Assembly: GCF_039645975.1 (NCBI RefSeq)
Contig: NZ_CP147918.1
Location: 1,984,001 to 2,048,000 of the forward strand
DNA from: Sulfurimonas sp. HSL-1716
Lineage (GTDB): Bacteria > Campylobacterota > Campylobacteria > Campylobacterales > Sulfurimonadaceae
DNA length: 64,000 nucleotides
Direction of reading: 5' to 3'
The notes under the pieces are model-generated. The model had not been told where the DNA came from. It ran no database searches and saw nothing but the letters and a program-made list of their open reading frames with translations. The position numbers and the translations under genes were made by a program. Positions within the stretch are counted from its first letter, which is position 1, and each line of letters starts with the position of its first letter. This document shows, piece after piece, positions 32,298 through 42,022 of the stretch.

Positions 32298-33164
32298 CTA
32301 TAAATACAACTTATCTTTAAGATAATTTACAACTTTGTTACAATTTTGTTGTAATTTATTATATTTTTGTGATGAAACCATGGACAAAACGGTATCAAAT
32401 TCGGCTCTATTAAAATCGTTAATTATTGGTATTTTTAGTGTTTCGAACAGTTTTACAAAATCTTTGTTATAGTCTTTTCTCTGCATGTAGACGGGCTTTC
32501 CGCCGCTTGCAAGACTTTCCAAAACGGCTTGAGGAGATGAAGTAACCAATATTTTTGTCGACGTAATAAACGTGTCGTATTCTTCAAACTCAAAAGTGCT
32601 GTCAAATCTGCCCGTTAACATCTCTTCATAATCCAAAAAATAATAAAATCCACTCAAAAAAGCGACATTCAATCCGTCAAAAAACTTAAGGTTCTTTTCT
32701 ATATCTTTTTCATAATCATCATCACCGAAAAAAAATCCCAACTCGATGTTTTTTTCAAACTCGCCGAAATATTTGTCATCTACGACAACGGATGTACATG
32801 TACGATCATCTTCATAATACGGCGATATTAAAAACTCGTTGTTCATACGTTTGTCATCGGGATCGTCGCTCACTCGGATAAAAGTCGAAAAATAGGAGCG
32901 CATATCTTCAAGCATCAAGGGATTTGCTTCTGCGCTGTCAAAGATGATCTTGTCTCCTTTATGCGCTATGTTTACGATGTTTCTTACCATATCTATGCCG
33001 ACACTGTTTTTTATACCGAAGTGTCTGGCTTCATGCGCTATGCGGAAATCCGAACAAAGAAGAGTCATCTCGTCATCGTCCAAAGCGTTTAAGATCGCAG
33101 CTGCGCGCCTAAATCTGTCAAGCCCTACCCTGTGCCCAGTATCTACATAATAAAATTTTCTCAC
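32298..33164 (-). CDS. Glycosyltransferase-like protein (GT-B / PseG-like), unknown
   Basis: A 288-residue cytoplasmic protein. The opening KFYYVDTGHRVGLDRFRRA and the later LVTSSPQAVLESLASGGKPVYM segment resemble the two Rossmann halves of GT-B glycosyltransferases such as PseG/MurG, where the second segment binds the nucleotide sugar. This is a pattern-level guess; no catalytic residue is certain. It is upstream of and in line with petABC, with no functional link apparent. Confidence 0.5.
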   Translation of the reverse strand: MRKFYYVDTGHRVGLDRFRRAAAILNALDDDEMTLLCSDFRIAHEARHFGIKNSVGIDMVRNIVNIAHKGDKIIFDSAEANPLMLEDMRSYFSTFIRVSDDPDDKRMNNEFLISPYYEDDRTCTSVVVDDKYFGEFEKNIELGFFFGDDDYEKDIEKNLKFFDGLNVAFLSGFYYFLDYEEMLTGRFDSTFEFEEYDTFITSTKILVTSSPQAVLESLASGGKPVYMQRKDYNKDFVKLFETLKIPIINDFNRAEFDTVLSMVSSQKYNKLQQNCNKVVNYLKDKLYL

Positions 33165-33892: not shown

Positions 33893-34561
33893 GTGTTTGT
33901 GATACAATACCGCATGGATTGGAAAACACTTATTGAAAATGAGCGTCACAAAGAGTATTTCAAAAAGCTCAAAGCTATCATCGATGAAAAATATGAAACG
34001 ACGACCGTCTACCCGCCAAAAGAAAAAATTTTCAACGCATTTAGCAAAACAAAATATGAAGAGCTCAAAGTAGTCATCCTCGGGCAAGACCCGTACCACG
34101 GAGCGGGACAGGCGCAGGGGCTTTGCTTCTCCACACCCGCAAACATTCAAAACCCGCCCTCGATGCAAAACATACTTAAAGAGATAGCTGCCGACACAGG
34201 CAAACAGCCTCAGGCAATTGACGGCGACCTTACCCCGTGGGCAACGCAGGGAGTTTTGCTTTTAAACACTACTTTAACGGTCGAAGCAGGTAAACCAAAA
34301 TCGCACTTTGGTTTAGGATGGGAGATCTTCACCGACACCGTCATAAAACATATCTCCGATAATTTTGAGGGAATCATCTTTTTGCTCTGGGGCTCACCTG
34401 CCATAGCCAAGTCAAACCTCATCGACAAGAACAAACATTTCATCCTCACCGCCCCGCACCCAAGCCCCCTTTCGGCATACCGAGGATTTTTCGGCTGTAA
34501 ACACTTTAGTAAAACAAATGAGATACTAAAAAAAGAGGGTAAAAAAGAGATAGTATGGTAG
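33893..34561 (+). CDS. ung: Uracil-DNA glycosylase, family 1
   Basis: Removes uracil from DNA. The protein has the catalytic motif GQDPYHGAGQAQGL near residue 64 and the HPSPLSAYRGFFGC motif near the C-terminus, matching family 1 UDG. Length is about 216-222 residues. The start is uncertain: GTG 33893 and GTG 33899 lie close to a GAGG box, whereas ATG 33914 gives the neat MDWK opening but has no visible ribosome binding site. It is the last ordinary-composition gene before the AT-rich island. Confidence 0.95.
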   Translation: MFVIQYRMDWKTLIENERHKEYFKKLKAIIDEKYETTTVYPPKEKIFNAFSKTKYEELKVVILGQDPYHGAGQAQGLCFSTPANIQNPPSMQNILKEIAADTGKQPQAIDGDLTPWATQGVLLLNTTLTVEAGKPKSHFGLGWEIFTDTVIKHISDNFEGIIFLLWGSPAIAKSNLIDKNKHFILTAPHPSPLSAYRGFFGCKHFSKTNEILKKEGKKEIVW

Positions 34562-34702
34562 TTTTGAGGGAAATTCTTGCAATATCGTAAACTCAATAAT
34601 GAAACTTTAATTAAAATTAAATCATAATTATTATTTCATTTAATAATTTACTACTAAAGAAAATATTAAAATATTGGCAAGTTAACTACTGGGATAAAGA
34701 GA

Positions 34703-35818
34703 ATGATACAATTTATAGAAAGTCTTCATAGGCCTGCTAATACAAGATTAAAATCTTGTGTTCACTTATGTAAGTTTATGAAAAATGAAAAGTATGATAA
34801 ACAAACATTTAGAGCAGAGTTCTTTCTATATATTTTAAATGAACTTAATCATTCATATGAAAACAATTTAACAAAAGACACATTTGGGATAACAAGTAAG
34901 GAATCTTTAGGGGTTATCAATAATTTATTTCAGAACAAAACAAAAAAAGAAAAAATTAGTTTTTTAACTACTTTCAACCTTGCAAAAAAAGATAAAACAG
35001 ATGAAGAAAAAAAAATTTTCTCACTATTTAAAACTGTAGGATATTATATAAAATTATCCGCAATATTTGATTTAATTTATAAAGACAGTTTAACAGATTT
35101 AGGTTTGGAGTTGGCTTCCTACCCATCTAAAAAAGATTTTACTAATTTAAGTTCAAAACAAAAATCCTTCTTCTTTAATCGAATAATTGAAAAAGATTTA
35201 CTATTCATATTGCCTTTGATATTTTGGCGAACCATATTAATAAAACATCCAAAAATAGTTAGTGGTTATGGTGATAAAGCCAAGTATGAAAACTCTATAA
35301 AGTTTATATCAGAAGCATTGTCACATAAAAAGTTTGTATATACTGCAATTAGTTGGAACAACTACATTGTTGTTAGAAATCAGTGGCTAAAAGACATAGA
35401 CTGTATAGGTTCAAATGGTAATATAAAACCTTCATTTAAATTAAAATTACTTGATACAGAAGAAAGTAAAAACTATTATAATCAAGTCGCATTACAAGCT
35501 AAACAATATATTAAAACAAAAGTAACACCTTTAGAAAAATATTTAGAAAGTTTAAAAACTATCAATAAAACATATAAACAATTAGTTAAAGAACAGGATA
35601 GAAAAAATTACGCTTTTATAAACTTATACGACATCGCACAAGAAGCAAAGTTTTCATATAATAAAATGCAAGATTTTTTGAATCATCTAGTATTAGATAA
35701 AGAAAACTGGCAAAGAGTAAAATTAAATAACGTAATTGGTGGAGCTGATTCTAGAAAAAGGTTTTTTATTAGACGAAAGCCTATATTAAATATTAAAATT
35801 TTAGAGGATTTAAAATGA
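34703..35818 (+). CDS. Island gene 1: unknown protein, possible winged-helix DNA-binding segment
   Basis: A 371-residue basic, Lys/Asn-rich protein I do not recognise. Residues 128-176 (LTDLGLELASYP, then a helix ending FFFNRIIEKDLLFILPLIFWR) resemble the wing-helix stretch seen in some restriction-enzyme and BREX-associated recognition proteins. The C-terminal third, with KQLVKEQDRKNYAFINLYDIAQEAKFSYNKMQDFLNHL, has a second helix-turn-helix-like pattern. Such a layout would suit a DNA-sensing subunit, but this is inference. Its ribosome binding site is weak (AAGAGA). The stop overlaps the ATPase start as ATGA. The first 11 bases of genes 1 and 2 are identical. Confidence 0.7.
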   Translation: MIQFIESLHRPANTRLKSCVHLCKFMKNEKYDKQTFRAEFFLYILNELNHSYENNLTKDTFGITSKESLGVINNLFQNKTKKEKISFLTTFNLAKKDKTDEEKKIFSLFKTVGYYIKLSAIFDLIYKDSLTDLGLELASYPSKKDFTNLSSKQKSFFFNRIIEKDLLFILPLIFWRTILIKHPKIVSGYGDKAKYENSIKFISEALSHKKFVYTAISWNNYIVVRNQWLKDIDCIGSNGNIKPSFKLKLLDTEESKNYYNQVALQAKQYIKTKVTPLEKYLESLKTINKTYKQLVKEQDRKNYAFINLYDIAQEAKFSYNKMQDFLNHLVLDKENWQRVKLNNVIGGADSRKRFFIRRKPILNIKILEDLK

Positions 35819-37347
35819 TACAATTAGAAAATTTATGGGAAGATTTAGTTCTTAGTAAATCAAACTTAAAAAGACTTGTAAAAGCTTATAATGCTGGGTT
35901 GGTACCCGAACTTCCTTACTTCATTGTAGGCCAAACTCATTTAAAAAATGCAGTAACAAAAAGATTAGAAAAACTTGATGAACAAAATTTTGATAGATTG
36001 ATTTTGACTAGTAATTATGGGAATGGAAAAACAAACCTTTTAAAATATTTAAAACTATATTTTAAAAATAACTCTAATATCAAGAATTTTGATATTCATT
36101 TCGAATATATAACAGCAGATATAGATCTAGTGAATATCTCTTCAATGCTTTTAGATGTATTAAATAATAGACATTATGAACAACTTATAGAAGCTATTCA
36201 AAATTTTGATGAAAATGAAGTTGATGAATTATATGAAGATTTTGAAGATATTCCACAATACATTAAACAATTGTTTCAAAATAAAAATAATGACAAAAAA
36301 CTAGATGAATTAGTTCAAATGGGTACAGGACACTTATATTACAAATCTTATTTCCATAATTATAAAATAAAACCTTTCACTGAACATGCAATGACTCAAA
36401 TACTCGCCCTATTTTTAAATTTACTTTATGAAAATAATAAATTATTTATTTTTGCAATTGACGAAATTGAAAAATTATATGATAAATCCAAAACTAGGTT
36501 AAGAAATTTTTTGACCTCTTATAGAGAATTAATTGATATATCAAATAAGGTAAATGGCCATTTATTACTAACTGCTATGACAGCTGGAGATCAACAAGCA
36601 AGAGAGATCTTAGATGAAAATCCAGCATTTAGATCTAGGATAGATAAAGACAGAATAGAGATTAGTCCAATAAATGAAGATGACATAGAAGAGCTAGTAA
36701 ATAAAATTATTTCTTTGCTTGAAAACAATAATATTTCTGTAAATACGACATCTGCCAAAGTTGTATCTAGAGTTAAAAGTGCTCGTCAATCAGGATTAAT
36801 AGAAGAAACTAATAGAGCATTACTACAAGAGATTATGGAAATTTTACAGAATAATGAAGATTATGAATCAATAGAAAATATTATTGATCAATTTGCATTA
36901 AAAGAGTATGTTAAAGAAAAAGAATCTCAATTAGAACTTGAGGATTTATTTAAAAGTATATATGTAAATATTTTCACTCCATTAACAACTTTTATCACAT
37001 CTACATACGATAATATAGAAGTAAATAAACAGAATAGAAGATTACTCACTTCAAATAAAGACATATACTTCTTCTTTAAAAACACATCATTAGAAAATCA
37101 AATTATAAATTGTAAAAAATCGATTCAAAATGGCAAAGAAATCACTTTATTAATACCAAATCAAATGGACTTCTCAATAGAGGAAAACTTTGGCGATGAT
37201 GATCAAACAACTGATAAAATTGACTTAGTAAGATATAATCCTAAACAGCTATTTACATTATTAGAACTCTATTTAGATTCCGATTACTTTGAGCAAGAAG
37301 ACGAAGTTCTAAAAGCCTTAATGAAGTTCTTTGACGGAGTATTATAA
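35815..37347 (+). CDS. Island gene 2: P-loop (AAA/STAND-like) ATPase
   Basis: A 510-residue ATP-binding protein. The Walker A motif is SNYGNGKT at residues 66-73, with K72 conserved though the first Gly is Ser. Walker B is LFIFAIDEIE at 210-219 with acidic D216/E217. A sensor-1-like strand follows (LLLTAMTAGD, 250-259), then Arg-rich AFRSRIDKDR (271-280) that could supply sensor or finger residues. The later part is helical, with a winged-helix-like SARQSGLIEETNRALLQEIMEIL. The pattern recalls ORC/BrxD-type ATPases, but I cannot place it in a named family. It probably couples ATP use to the adjacent nuclease. A GAGGA box precedes its ATG inside gene 1. Confidence 0.8.
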   Translation: MIQLENLWEDLVLSKSNLKRLVKAYNAGLVPELPYFIVGQTHLKNAVTKRLEKLDEQNFDRLILTSNYGNGKTNLLKYLKLYFKNNSNIKNFDIHFEYITADIDLVNISSMLLDVLNNRHYEQLIEAIQNFDENEVDELYEDFEDIPQYIKQLFQNKNNDKKLDELVQMGTGHLYYKSYFHNYKIKPFTEHAMTQILALFLNLLYENNKLFIFAIDEIEKLYDKSKTRLRNFLTSYRELIDISNKVNGHLLLTAMTAGDQQAREILDENPAFRSRIDKDRIEISPINEDDIEELVNKIISLLENNNISVNTTSAKVVSRVKSARQSGLIEETNRALLQEIMEILQNNEDYESIENIIDQFALKEYVKEKESQLELEDLFKSIYVNIFTPLTTFITSTYDNIEVNKQNRRLLTSNKDIYFFFKNTSLENQIINCKKSIQNGKEITLLIPNQMDFSIEENFGDDDQTTDKIDLVRYNPKQLFTLLELYLDSDYFEQEDEVLKALMKFFDGVL

Positions 37348-39071
37348 TGTTTAAATCTAATGAACAATATGCTTGCTATGAAATTATTATTAAAGATGAT
37401 TTAGAAGAAAAAATACATGAATTTAACCATTTGTTAATGACAGCTATTAATTTAATGCCCTGCCTACCTAAAGGAAGAATAAAAAAGAAACTCAAGACAT
37501 TTCTAAATGTCTCTGATGAAGAATTATTATTAGAAAAACTAGATAATAAAATAAAACTTATTTTAAAAGAAAGCTTATTTGAAAAAATTGAAAGTATATT
37601 GCACACTACTAGTAAGTGTGAAGTGATTATTCCAGATAAAAAAGTATTTGTGATGAGTAACATGAAAAATGATTTGGACAAAAAAATTATTAGGAAGATA
37701 AATCATAAAATACTAAGTGAATTATTTGAAAGTTCATATGCGAAATTAGATCTCGATAATAAAGATTTAGAAACAATTATTCAGAAGTTTGCAGATACCC
37801 AGAAAATTGTTGATGAAATCAACTTCCATAAAATAAGTTATGTAGATTTTGTAGGTATTCAACTTGAAGATATTAATAAAGAGTTGGACTTTGAAAATGT
37901 CAATAGTATTAATATAAAATATTTTGAAAACTATGTGCATATTAAAAAGTGCTATGTGAATTTTGAAAGAATAGAAGAAATCAGGTTGGACTACCTTAAT
38001 AAATGTGATTTAGACTATATAATAATAGGAGATTTTATATTTCCATTTAAGTATGAAAAATTTAGATCGTATATCAAGCAAGAAAAACAAGCTCATTATG
38101 ATTTTCAATATATAAAAATAAATCTTGACCATACAACAGCTGATGAAAGACATATTGGTAATTTAAAACGAAAGACTATAAAGGAAGCCTTTTTAAAATA
38201 TTTTAGAAAAGATGGGAATAATACTGCAAAAATATTAGCAAGTTTAGAAAATAACTTTTATATAAAAAATACAGAAAAAGAAGAAGATTTTTTTGAAAAA
38301 TCATATTTAATCAAAAAAAATATACCAAAAGATGACCATTCACTGGCTAGTTTAAAACATTTTCAATTTATTGTACCTTATTTTGATAAAGATAAAAATA
38401 AAGCTTTTTTTGGAATTTATAATGATAATAAGAGTAGAAATCATGAAGATCAATCTCAAAGAGGCTTAAGTAGTTGGATTAATAAAAATGGTGTAACATG
38501 CAATTATAGTAACAATAAAGACAGTAGAGATGAAGTTTGTGAGGTTATGACATTAGAACCTAAATATAGTTTTTATTATCAACAACACTTTTTTGAAGAT
38601 TTATTAGATGAGCTTTTTAAAGAAATGAAAGGTTCATCAAAAATTACAGATATACTTTACAGTGTGAAACTTAATGAAAAAGAATTTGACTTTATACTAC
38701 TCACAGATGACAATAAGATTTTTGTAGTAGAAGCAAAAACCAAACTAACAGGATATTACATAGAAAGACAACTTAAAAAATTTAATGATTTACACAAAAT
38801 TTCTTCAAAATATGAATCTGATTCAACTAAAACTTTACTTGATGAGTATATAATTATTGGCTTTAATAGTGATGAAACTTGCAAAGATAAATTTAACTTT
38901 TTTATTGAAAAATACCCTATAAATGGGAATGCCTTACAAGAGCATGACAAAGCGTATAGTTTTAAAGTACCCATTTCAGGGCAAAAAGACAAAGAACTTT
39001 ATTGTATAGCTGATATTTATTATGATAATTTGAAAAGTAAAATTGAAGAAAGCTTAAAAGCAAGCTCTTGA
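37347..39071 (+). CDS. Island gene 3: large protein with C-terminal PD-(D/E)XK nuclease-like domain
   Basis: A 574-residue protein. Residues 1-400 match nothing I know; they are helical, with a charged core. The last third has the pattern of a PD-(D/E)XK nuclease: a helix with Glu (FFEDLLDELF, about 415-424), the strand EFDFILL with D448, then FVVEAKTK with E462 and K464, followed by a Gln-bearing helix (YIERQLKKF). This is the catalytic D-x13-E-x-K arrangement of restriction enzymes and NERD-like nucleases. Its ATG overlaps the ATPase stop (TAATG), so production is linked. It is likely the cleaving subunit; activity is inferred. Confidence 0.75.
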   Translation: MFKSNEQYACYEIIIKDDLEEKIHEFNHLLMTAINLMPCLPKGRIKKKLKTFLNVSDEELLLEKLDNKIKLILKESLFEKIESILHTTSKCEVIIPDKKVFVMSNMKNDLDKKIIRKINHKILSELFESSYAKLDLDNKDLETIIQKFADTQKIVDEINFHKISYVDFVGIQLEDINKELDFENVNSINIKYFENYVHIKKCYVNFERIEEIRLDYLNKCDLDYIIIGDFIFPFKYEKFRSYIKQEKQAHYDFQYIKINLDHTTADERHIGNLKRKTIKEAFLKYFRKDGNNTAKILASLENNFYIKNTEKEEDFFEKSYLIKKNIPKDDHSLASLKHFQFIVPYFDKDKNKAFFGIYNDNKSRNHEDQSQRGLSSWINKNGVTCNYSNNKDSRDEVCEVMTLEPKYSFYYQQHFFEDLLDELFKEMKGSSKITDILYSVKLNEKEFDFILLTDDNKIFVVEAKTKLTGYYIERQLKKFNDLHKISSKYESDSTKTLLDEYIIIGFNSDETCKDKFNFFIEKYPINGNALQEHDKAYSFKVPISGQKDKELYCIADIYYDNLKSKIEESLKASS

Positions 39072-39090
39072 TCACTCAAATTTTATTCAA

Positions 39091-40143
39091 GTGAGACAGA
39101 GATTGAAAAAATTACCAGTCACAAGATATTATGGTTCAAAAAGAAAAATCATTTTAGATATATGGAACTTAATAGAACAAGAGAAAATTCAATTTGATTC
39201 TGTACTTGACCTCTTTGGTGGAACTGGTACTTTTGCATATAAAGCAAAACTTGAAGGTAAACAAGTTATTTATAATGATATTTTTAAGTTTAATTACTTA
39301 TTCGGCAAAGCTTTACTTCAAAACAACACTACTAAGTTAACACAAAAAGATGTTAACTTTTTAATAACAAAACAACACGGTATTGATTACAAATATTATG
39401 TAAAGGAACATTATAAAGATATCTATTTTTTAGATCATGAAAATGAACTTATTGATATAATCGTGCAAAATATTTCTCATTTAAAAAGCCCTTATAAAAG
39501 AGCCATGGCATTTTATGCATTATCTCAAACAGCAATTATTAAAAGACCTTTTAATAGCTTTCACCGTAAAAATCTTTCTTTAAGAACTCGGGATGTTAAA
39601 AGGAAATTTGGGAATAAAACTACTTGGGAAAAAGATCTTGTCAATACCTTTAAAGTTTTTTGTAAAGATATAAATCAATATATTATATCAAATGGTTTAA
39701 AGAATAAAGCATTAAATTACCAAGCTTTAAAATGTCAAGAAACAGCTGATCTTATTTATATTGATCCTCCATATATAAGCGAAAGAGGTTATCATTTAAG
39801 ATATCATGAACGTTATCATTTTTTGGAAGCTTTAGCCCATTATGATAGTTTCCTTGATTTTATTAATCCTAATAAAAAAAATAAAGAAGTTTTGATAAAT
39901 AACTCAGATGAATTTGAAAATAAGCATACAATACATACACAAATAGATAAACTTATCAAAAAGTATCATGATAAAGTCATTGTTTTTTCATATCGAAATT
40001 TAGGTATCCCTTCTGCAACAGAATTACGAAAAATTTTTGAAAAAAACAACAAGAGCTGTAAAGAGTATCACTTACATAATCATTTTTATGCGCTAAACCG
40101 TTCTAATGATAAGTTACATGAAATAGTTTTTATTTTGCAATAA
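39091..40143 (+). CDS. Island gene 4: D12-class DNA adenine-N6 methyltransferase
   Basis: A 350-residue methyltransferase. Near the N-terminus is the opening VTRYYGSKRK (residues 10-19) and the SAM motif DLFGGTGTFAY (40-50). Acidic motif II is YNDIF, and the catalytic motif IV DPPY lies at 225-228. This order (SAM motif before DPPY) and YxGSK opening put it in the Dam-like D12 class (COG3392-type). It modifies adenine N6; target sequence cannot be read from the protein. GTG 39091 is given, but TTG 39103 (MKKLPVTRYY) may be the true start. It likely protects host DNA from the upstream nuclease genes. Confidence 0.88.
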   Translation: MRQRLKKLPVTRYYGSKRKIILDIWNLIEQEKIQFDSVLDLFGGTGTFAYKAKLEGKQVIYNDIFKFNYLFGKALLQNNTTKLTQKDVNFLITKQHGIDYKYYVKEHYKDIYFLDHENELIDIIVQNISHLKSPYKRAMAFYALSQTAIIKRPFNSFHRKNLSLRTRDVKRKFGNKTTWEKDLVNTFKVFCKDINQYIISNGLKNKALNYQALKCQETADLIYIDPPYISERGYHLRYHERYHFLEALAHYDSFLDFINPNKKNKEVLINNSDEFENKHTIHTQIDKLIKKYHDKVIVFSYRNLGIPSATELRKIFEKNNKSCKEYHLHNHFYALNRSNDKLHEIVFILQ

Positions 40144-40153
40144 AAACTATTTG

Positions 40154-42022
40154 TTATCGTTTCGATATTTTTATATAGATATGCAGTATTTCTAAAGCTG
40201 CGGGGGTTACTCCGCTTATTTGCGAAGCGGCCTGTAGCGTTGGCGGGTTGAACTTTTCTAGTTTCTCCACGATCTCTTTTGAAAGTCCGCTTACTTTTTT
40301 GAAGTCAAAACCCTCAGGGATCTCGATGGTGAGATATTTTTTCATCTTCTCGATCTCTTGGCTTTGTTTTTCTACATAGCGGGAGTATTTTGCCTCTACT
40401 AAGATCTCCTCTTTGATGTAGTCTGAGAATTTTTCCAGCTCAGGCACTATGGCAACCATTTTTTCTACCGTAAATGTTTTACGCGCTGCAAGCTGCTCTG
40501 CGTAGATGGTGTCTGTTATTTTGTCCTCGCCCATGCTTTCAAGCAGTGCTATGAACTCTTTGTTCGGTGTGAACTTTGTCTCTTTTAAAAGTTGTACACC
40601 CTGGGCTATCTGCTCTTTTTTTGCAAGCATCTTTTCATATGCATCTTGCGGGAGAAGTCCAAGTTCGTGACCGTAACCGCTTAAGCGAACGTCTGCTGAC
40701 TCTTCACGAAGAAGCAGACGGTATTCGGCACGGGATGTAAACATTCTATACGGCTCTTTTGTTCCTTTTGTTACAAGGTCGTCTATGAGCACGCCTATGT
40801 ACGCTTCATCACGGCGAAGGACTAGCGGCTCTTTTCCTTGGAGTGAAAGAGAAGCGTTGATGCCCGCCATTAGCCCTTGTGCTGCAGCTTCTTCGTAACC
40901 TGTCGTACCGTTTATCTGCCCTGCCAGGAAAAGGTTTTTTATCTTTTTAGTTTCAAGAGAGTGTTTGAGTTCTGTCGGGTCTACGTAGTCGTACTCAATG
41001 GCATAACCGTAACGCACGATGCGCGCATTTTCCATCCCCTTAACGGAGTGGATCATCTCCTCTTGTACGTCAACAGGTAAAGATGTGCTCATACCGTTTA
41101 TGTAGCACTCTGTGTTGTCAAAGGTCTGCGGTTCGATGAAAAGATGGTGCTGGTCTTTGTCGCGAAAACGGTTTATCTTGTCTTCGATGCTCGGGCAGTA
41201 ACGCGGCCCTACTCCCTCGATCTGCCCCGTAAAAAGAGGAGCTCTATGAAAGTTACCCTCGATGATGGCGTGAGTTTCAGGGTTTGTGTAGGCGATGTAG
41301 CACGGCAGCTGTTTTTTTGTGCGTGCAAACTCTTCACGGTCCGTTCTAAAACTAAACGGTGTCGGTACGTCATCGCCGGGTTGTTCTTCCATTACGCTAA
41401 AGTCGATGCTTGAGCTGTCGATGCGCGCACATGTTCCCGTTTTTAAACGTCCCACACGTACGTCTCTACTTTTTAAAGACTCCGAGAGGTTTTCTGCACT
41501 AAACTCTCCAAAACGCCCTGCACTCTTTTGGTATTCGCCGATGTGGATAACACCTTTTAAGAATGTTCCCGTCGTAAGGATTACGCGTTTTGCCATGTAT
41601 TCGTGGAAAAGCTCCGTTCTTACACCAACGACCGTGTCGCCATCAAAGATGAGTGCTTCTACAGTCTCTTGTTTAAGCTCCATATTCGGTGTGTGGAGGA
41701 TCTTGTTTCTGGCGATGATACGGTACTTGTCCATATCTATCTGCGCGCGGGTTCCGCGAACTGCTGGTCCTTTTGTCTGGTTGAGTATGCGAAACTGTAT
41801 GCCCGCTTCATCGGTAATGAGTCCCATCTCGCCGCCAAGAGCGTCAAGCTCGCGCACCAAGTGACCTTTTGCAAGACCGCCCACGGCGGGGTTACAGCTT
41901 GTTGCTCCCACTTGTTCGGCAAGCATAGTAAGTAAAAGGGTTTTATGCCCCATTCTTGCAGCGGCAAGGGAAGCTTCTACACCTGCATGTCCCGCGCCGA
42001 CCACGATTACGTCATAATTCAT
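40154..42022 (-). CDS. mnmG: tRNA uridine-34 5-carboxymethylaminomethyl modification enzyme, FAD subunit
   Basis: A 622-residue MnmG (GidA) that, with MnmE, modifies U34 of several tRNAs. It starts [16 protein letters not shown] (FAD motif). Then come [29 protein letters not shown] with the catalytic Cys, [13 protein letters not shown], and the C-terminal helical domain ending [16 protein letters not shown]. The length is complete, so the island next to its 3' end did not damage it: its stop lies 10 nt from the island methyltransferase stop, convergently. Confidence 0.98.

Follow-up and report, generated by a model that had tools for sequence, protein, structure and literature searches.

McrBC-like systems and LlaJI comprise an AAA+ protein and a separate PD-(D/E)XK protein, with methyltransferases in addition in LlaJI, and FokI-type systems associate tandem D12 methyltransferases with a single restriction endonuclease. 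A survey published in 2026, which covers BREX and its related systems, classes BrxD of type-2 BREX among the ORC/Cdc6 AAA+ ATPases, with a role that is distinct yet uncharacterised, and places a NERD-type nuclease in PglW of type 2 BREX (PMC12839542). The present analysis concerns a cassette of four genes (A to D) that, judging from its sequence, is probably (probability of about 0.6) a rare and mobile ATP-dependent defence system resembling restriction-modification.

The window, i.e., the whole stretch of 64,000 nucleotides that was analyzed, is part of a 2.26 Mb single-contig Campylobacterota genome. The cassette has ung on one side and the 3′ end of mnmG on the other, and its four genes are all carried by the forward strand. 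Gene A (34703–35818, 371 aa) encodes a mostly helical protein with a winged-helix-like C-terminal end in its model, presumed to be the DNA-binding or recognition subunit; gene B (35815–37347, 510 aa), an AAA+ ATPase related to BrxC/BrxD (PF10923); gene C (37347–39071, 574 aa), a protein with a putative C-terminal PD-(D/E)XK nuclease domain; and gene D (39091–40143, 350 aa), a D12-class N6-adenine DNA methyltransferase (PF02086, PADLOC MTase_II). Genes A and B overlap by four bases and genes B and C by one, and gene D starts 19 bases past the end of gene C. The GC content of the cassette is 25.1%, compared to 42.1% for the remainder of the window. The earlier note had described three coupled genes in an AT-rich insert at 34703–39071, and its coordinates, overlaps and composition hold. 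All the cassette genes show a codon-position GC of coding type (about 17% at the third position), and the longest open frame found in composition-matched shuffles (n = 300) had a mean of 66 codons and a maximum of 139; the frames of the cassette are longer than what shuffled sequence yields.

Comparison by blastn with a genome of the same genus (G116) revealed colinearity through position 33907 and again from 40164. The stretch missing from G116 at this place (33908–40163) includes the cassette as well as ung, and its far limit adjoins the 3′ end of mnmG; G116 carries 2.3 kb of different genes there. In two further relatives, the counterpart of the window gene 32298–33164 comes almost immediately after mnmG, so that the mnmG-side junction varies between genomes. 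The ung gene adjoining the cassette (33893–34561) shows 46–50% identity with the ung genes of the same genus, which are located elsewhere, the neighboring mnmG showing 80–92%; it is the sole ung match in the genome, and its GC content (44.7%) is not low. Since its identity within the genus is low and the genome has no second ung, it looks like a foreign replacement that arrived with or near the cassette. At the other end, a long inverted repeat (AAATAGTTTTTAT...ATAAAAACTATTT, 40120–40155) spans the 3′ end of gene D just before the stop codon of mnmG and is probably a terminator shared by these two converging genes. A promoter scan was uninformative (49 found compared to 40.5 expected).

A search for gene C in 298 genomes of Campylobacterota identified one other carrier, a Sulfurovum MAG with the same A-B-C-D order, and a profile of gene B then led to a Chryseobacterium, a Bacteroidaceae MAG and, within the family of this Chryseobacterium, four additional genomes. 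In total, the A-B-C-D series was found in identical order and orientation in eight genomes from two distant phyla, i.e., two Campylobacterota, the Bacteroidaceae MAG, and Chryseobacterium with the four genomes of its family. The co-occurrence of genes A to C that the earlier note proposed to look for thus exists. The order is otherwise kept at two imperfect loci, one with a partial gene A (L020) and one (G596, L022:10185–11919) where gene C lies in two overlapping frames and genes A, B and D are whole; the latter either has decayed or results from a sequencing error. The cassette is rare, with carriers amounting to two of the 298 genomes in its phylum, five of 323 in the Chryseobacterium family and, for the order that includes the Bacteroidaceae MAG, one of 344. 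Scans of plasmids, phages and IMG/VR, which reach close to moderate relatives only, did not detect it. Two IMG/VR matches (L008 and L009) proved to be short similarities to another ATPase inside a phage replication region, and a match of G238 to gene B (E = 6e-4) is a different ATP-binding protein.

The proteins of the window share 21–32% (A), 26–36% (B), 18–29% (C) and 40–71% (D) identity with those of the other loci. The two Campylobacterota copies are 71% identical for D and 37% or less for A, B and C. The stronger divergence of A to C than of D would be consistent with an arms race that affects the attacking components; alternatively, it could reflect the exchange of gene D between cassettes. 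Despite identities of 18–36%, the catalytic residues of B and C are unchanged.

Gene D matches PF02086 (E = 2.4e-14) and PADLOC MTase_II (7.8e-53), and a D12-class gene D is present at all eight loci. Among 322 genomes of the Chryseobacterium family, the gene D profile gave five matches with E <= 1e-177, in exactly the five genomes that carry gene B, the next-best match (1.7e-57) being a tandem double methyltransferase. Such an overlap of five in 322 genomes would arise by chance with a probability of 3.6e-11, a figure that is only rough because the genomes are related. The comparison of loci shows that gene D is a constant fourth member of the cassette and not a mere neighbor: the trio of the earlier note does recur, and the methyltransferase it placed beside the trio belongs with genes A to C, so that the unit has four genes rather than three. 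Gene D has its closest likeness in the second half of double methyltransferases arranged in tandem. One of these, in G514 (L112:1–4005), is a double D12 enzyme with a D-like second half; its neighbors are a DUF262-like gene on one side and, on the other, a gene that may end in a PD-(D/E)XK domain. This locus may be another restriction-modification locus.

Gene B matches the Pfam family BrxC_BrxD (PF10923) above the family cut-off (E = 5.4e-9), and seven of the eight gene B homologues match it at E <= 0.1. In a profile comparison with ten BrxD-type proteins (E = 5e-6), the similarity is confined to the N-terminal Walker A region, over about 71 residues; the BrxD equivalog model of NCBIfam reaches 14.7 of 350 bits, far short of its threshold, and PADLOC gives a single weak BrxD match (4.5e-4). 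The homologues have 504–511 residues, and the Walker A (residues 66–73, YGNGKT, K72) and Walker B (D216/E217) motifs pointed out earlier are invariant in all eight. R275, also invariant in the alignment of eight, sits at a position suitable for an arginine finger and may act as one. On sequence grounds, gene B probably encodes a remote BrxD-type AAA+ ATPase.

The nuclease motif previously noticed at the end of gene C (D448, E462 and K464) is likewise invariant, together with E417 and E446, in the seven unsplit homologues. Two of these seven match NERD (best E = 7.6e-5), CARF_PDDEXK nucleases appear as weak matches among the homologues, and the best match of the family profile in PDB is part of Can2 (E = 0.016); the window copy itself has no family match and none in PADLOC. 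An AlphaFold2 model built from four sequences had a pLDDT of 34. On the basis of the motif and of these weak profile matches, gene C most likely ends in a PD-(D/E)XK nuclease resembling Can2 and NERD.

Gene A belongs to no family in Pfam, NCBIfam, PADLOC or PHROGs and has homologues at the seven further loci, including the partial one. Its model (pLDDT 75.5) is helical, with a winged-helix-like unit at the C-terminal end (about 303–366). A fold search of this model against PDB and viral models gave nothing at E <= 0.001; the matches of low significance include several winged-helix proteins. Of the winged-helix segments suggested earlier, this medium-confidence model retains the C-terminal one and no other, and gene A may bind DNA through this end. 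Relatedness to DUF4007/SspB, considered on account of a vaguely similar N-terminal motif, was rejected (0.5% probability in profile comparison).

PADLOC-DB 2.0.0 (2023) does not join genes A to C under one named system, as the earlier note had anticipated, and later naming is possible; on the cassette homologues, PADLOC gave only weak and scattered matches. The cassette is also unnamed in NCBIfam, Pfam and PDB, the searched parts of the 2026 survey contain no such gene set (PMC12839542), and literature searches, in a library largely devoid of subscription papers, retrieved no description of it. The cassette resembles BREX, in particular type 2 (Pgl) with its BrxD ATPase, by the membership of gene B in the BrxC/BrxD ATPase family and by an operon that includes an adenine methyltransferase and a putative DNA-binding protein. 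However, it lacks PglZ (Pfam, NCBIfam and PADLOC on A to D; eight loci), a BrxC of 1200–1300 residues (gene B resembling only the N-terminus of BrxC/BrxD ATPases), a PglX-type methyltransferase, a helicase and BrxL, its methyltransferase is a small D12-class enzyme and its nuclease is a separate protein. By its sequence, it is thus BREX-flavored but not BREX, since it has neither PglZ nor a full-length BrxC. The earlier note could match the trio neither to McrBC nor to standard BREX, and this stands for the absence of PglZ and of McrB/McrC but not for gene B: as a remote BrxD-type protein, with the PF10923 match given above, it gives the cassette some relation to BREX.

Other described systems are similar in different respects. 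Like the cassette, the DUF499-centred BREX-related system Hma combines an ATPase, an N6-adenine methyltransferase and a nuclease function in a short operon, but according to the survey Hma has a DUF499 ATPase together with a helicase to which the nuclease is often fused (PMC12839542), and searches of A to D in Pfam, PADLOC and NCBIfam gave neither DUF499 nor helicase. The pairing of an AAA+ protein with a separate, here putative, PD-(D/E)XK protein is shared with McrBC and LlaJI. However, the cassette adds protein A, its methyltransferase is an adenine and not a cytosine enzyme, and neither B nor C has a McrB- or McrC-type (PF10117) match in Pfam at E <= 5. As in Ssp and type-4 BREX, a DNA-binding protein, an ATPase and a modification enzyme would be grouped in one operon, but with methylation instead of phosphorothioation, no DUF4007 alignment for A and no PAPS reductase (Pfam). 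Finally, gene D resembles the second half of the double methyltransferases of the FokI type but has a single domain, and genes A to C replace the single restriction endonuclease.

The four genes are co-inherited, and their distribution is patchy, with mobile-element genes among the neighbors. In the Sulfurovum MAG, the cassette is flanked by a TnsE-like gene on one side and by tniQ-tnsC-tnsB-tnsA on the other (L004:5064–17131), with Pfam matches to TnsE_C (3.7e-4, below the cut-off), TniQ (2.5e-21), TniB (6.6e-50) and TnsA (3.3e-10); it is therefore probable cargo of a Tn7-like element. A search for long terminal inverted repeats of this element gave nothing convincing in the AT-rich background. 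This copy adjoins the 3′ end of mnmG, as the window copy adjoins mnmG, and a literature search found no report of mnmG as neighbor of a Tn7-like element. The cassette of G464 is close to a phage-type integrase and a primase, and that of G549 is 27 bp from a Septu-like PtuA/PtuB pair (L021:3701–7217; PDC-M62A/B in PADLOC, E = 1e-43 and 7e-57). These Tn7-like genes, integrase and PtuA/PtuB pair are signs of horizontal spread and of defence-type neighbors, in line with the support that the earlier note had asked for. Such contexts are common for defence cargo (compare PMC8649781), but a recognised defence pair adjoins only one of the eight loci, the other loci that were looked at having mostly ordinary genes as neighbors. 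In the Bacteroidaceae copy, gene D is directly followed by a small fifth gene (L007:5896–6426, 176 aa) that belongs to no family and has a very weak JetD-like match.

The grounds counted for a defence system are the gene order in eight genomes, the co-occurrence of B and D, the conserved residues, the likeness to BrxD and to NERD/Can2, the PtuA/PtuB, Tn7-like and integrase contexts, and a low-GC insert absent from a relative. Counted against it are the assignment of gene C on a motif and weak profiles, the medium-confidence model of gene A with no significant fold match, the short span of the similarity between B and BrxD, and the single locus beside a recognised defence pair. Because the methyltransferase always accompanies the three other genes, the comparison is better accounted for by a restriction-modification-like system than by a trio acting on its own. 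In such a system, gene D would mark self by adenine methylation at a short site of host DNA, and A, perhaps with B, would recognise the unmodified site or some state of the invader on DNA. B would assemble with A on DNA and use ATP to check it or to move along it, and its ATP cycle would license C, which would then cut DNA with its PD-(D/E)XK domain. The working likeness is with McrBC/LlaJI or BREX, where a methyl mark would stand for self, an AAA+ protein would be the gatekeeper and a separate nuclease the effector. We lean, by little more than even odds, towards a so far undescribed class in which a BrxD-type ATPase links a winged-helix protein (A) to a PD-(D/E)XK effector (C), self is marked by a single D12 methyltransferase, and spread between Campylobacterota and Bacteroidota occurs through Tn7-like and other mobile elements.

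The BrxD-type ATPase of gene B and the proximity of gene C to Can2 and NERD, families that include nucleases of indiscriminate action, would also suit a BREX-like block or abortive response, in which unmethylated invader DNA would be sensed and held by A and B, self would be marked by D, and the C nuclease would be set off only by infection, maybe attacking the DNA of its own cell, so that stalling or suicide protects rather than site-specific cutting. In BREX, according to the survey, NERD/PD-(D/E)XK domains serve as effectors of a backup kind that are in part suicidal (PMC12839542). However, PglZ and other core parts of BREX are missing from the cassette, the likeness of gene C to Can2 is weak, and a constant methyltransferase equally suits ordinary self/non-self cutting; we consider this response a rather unlikely alternative. 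The location of one copy within a set of Tn7-like genes and of another near an integrase and a primase raises the question of whether the cassette serves the mobile element, by stabilisation, exclusion of rivals or transposition, and not the defence of the cell. This seems improbable since the carriers differ, other copies have no recognised adjoining transposition gene, and Tn7-like elements are known to carry many defence systems as cargo (PMC8649781); besides, a selfish addiction of the restriction-modification type would involve the same biochemistry anyway. Lastly, the household genes ung and mnmG that flank the window copy could suggest a host function in methylation-linked DNA repair or gene regulation, devoid of any anti-invader role, but the rarity of the cassette in all three groups searched, its absence at the same place in G116 and its foreign base composition make this very improbable.

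If the restriction-modification-like reading is true, the cassette would represent a BREX-related system of small size, devoid of PglZ, full-length BrxC and helicase and equipped with an apparent nuclease. With four genes only, it would be easily moved into a laboratory strain and could reveal what a BrxD-type ATPase does. Furthermore, it would extend the cargo known from Tn7-like elements by a system linked to methylation.
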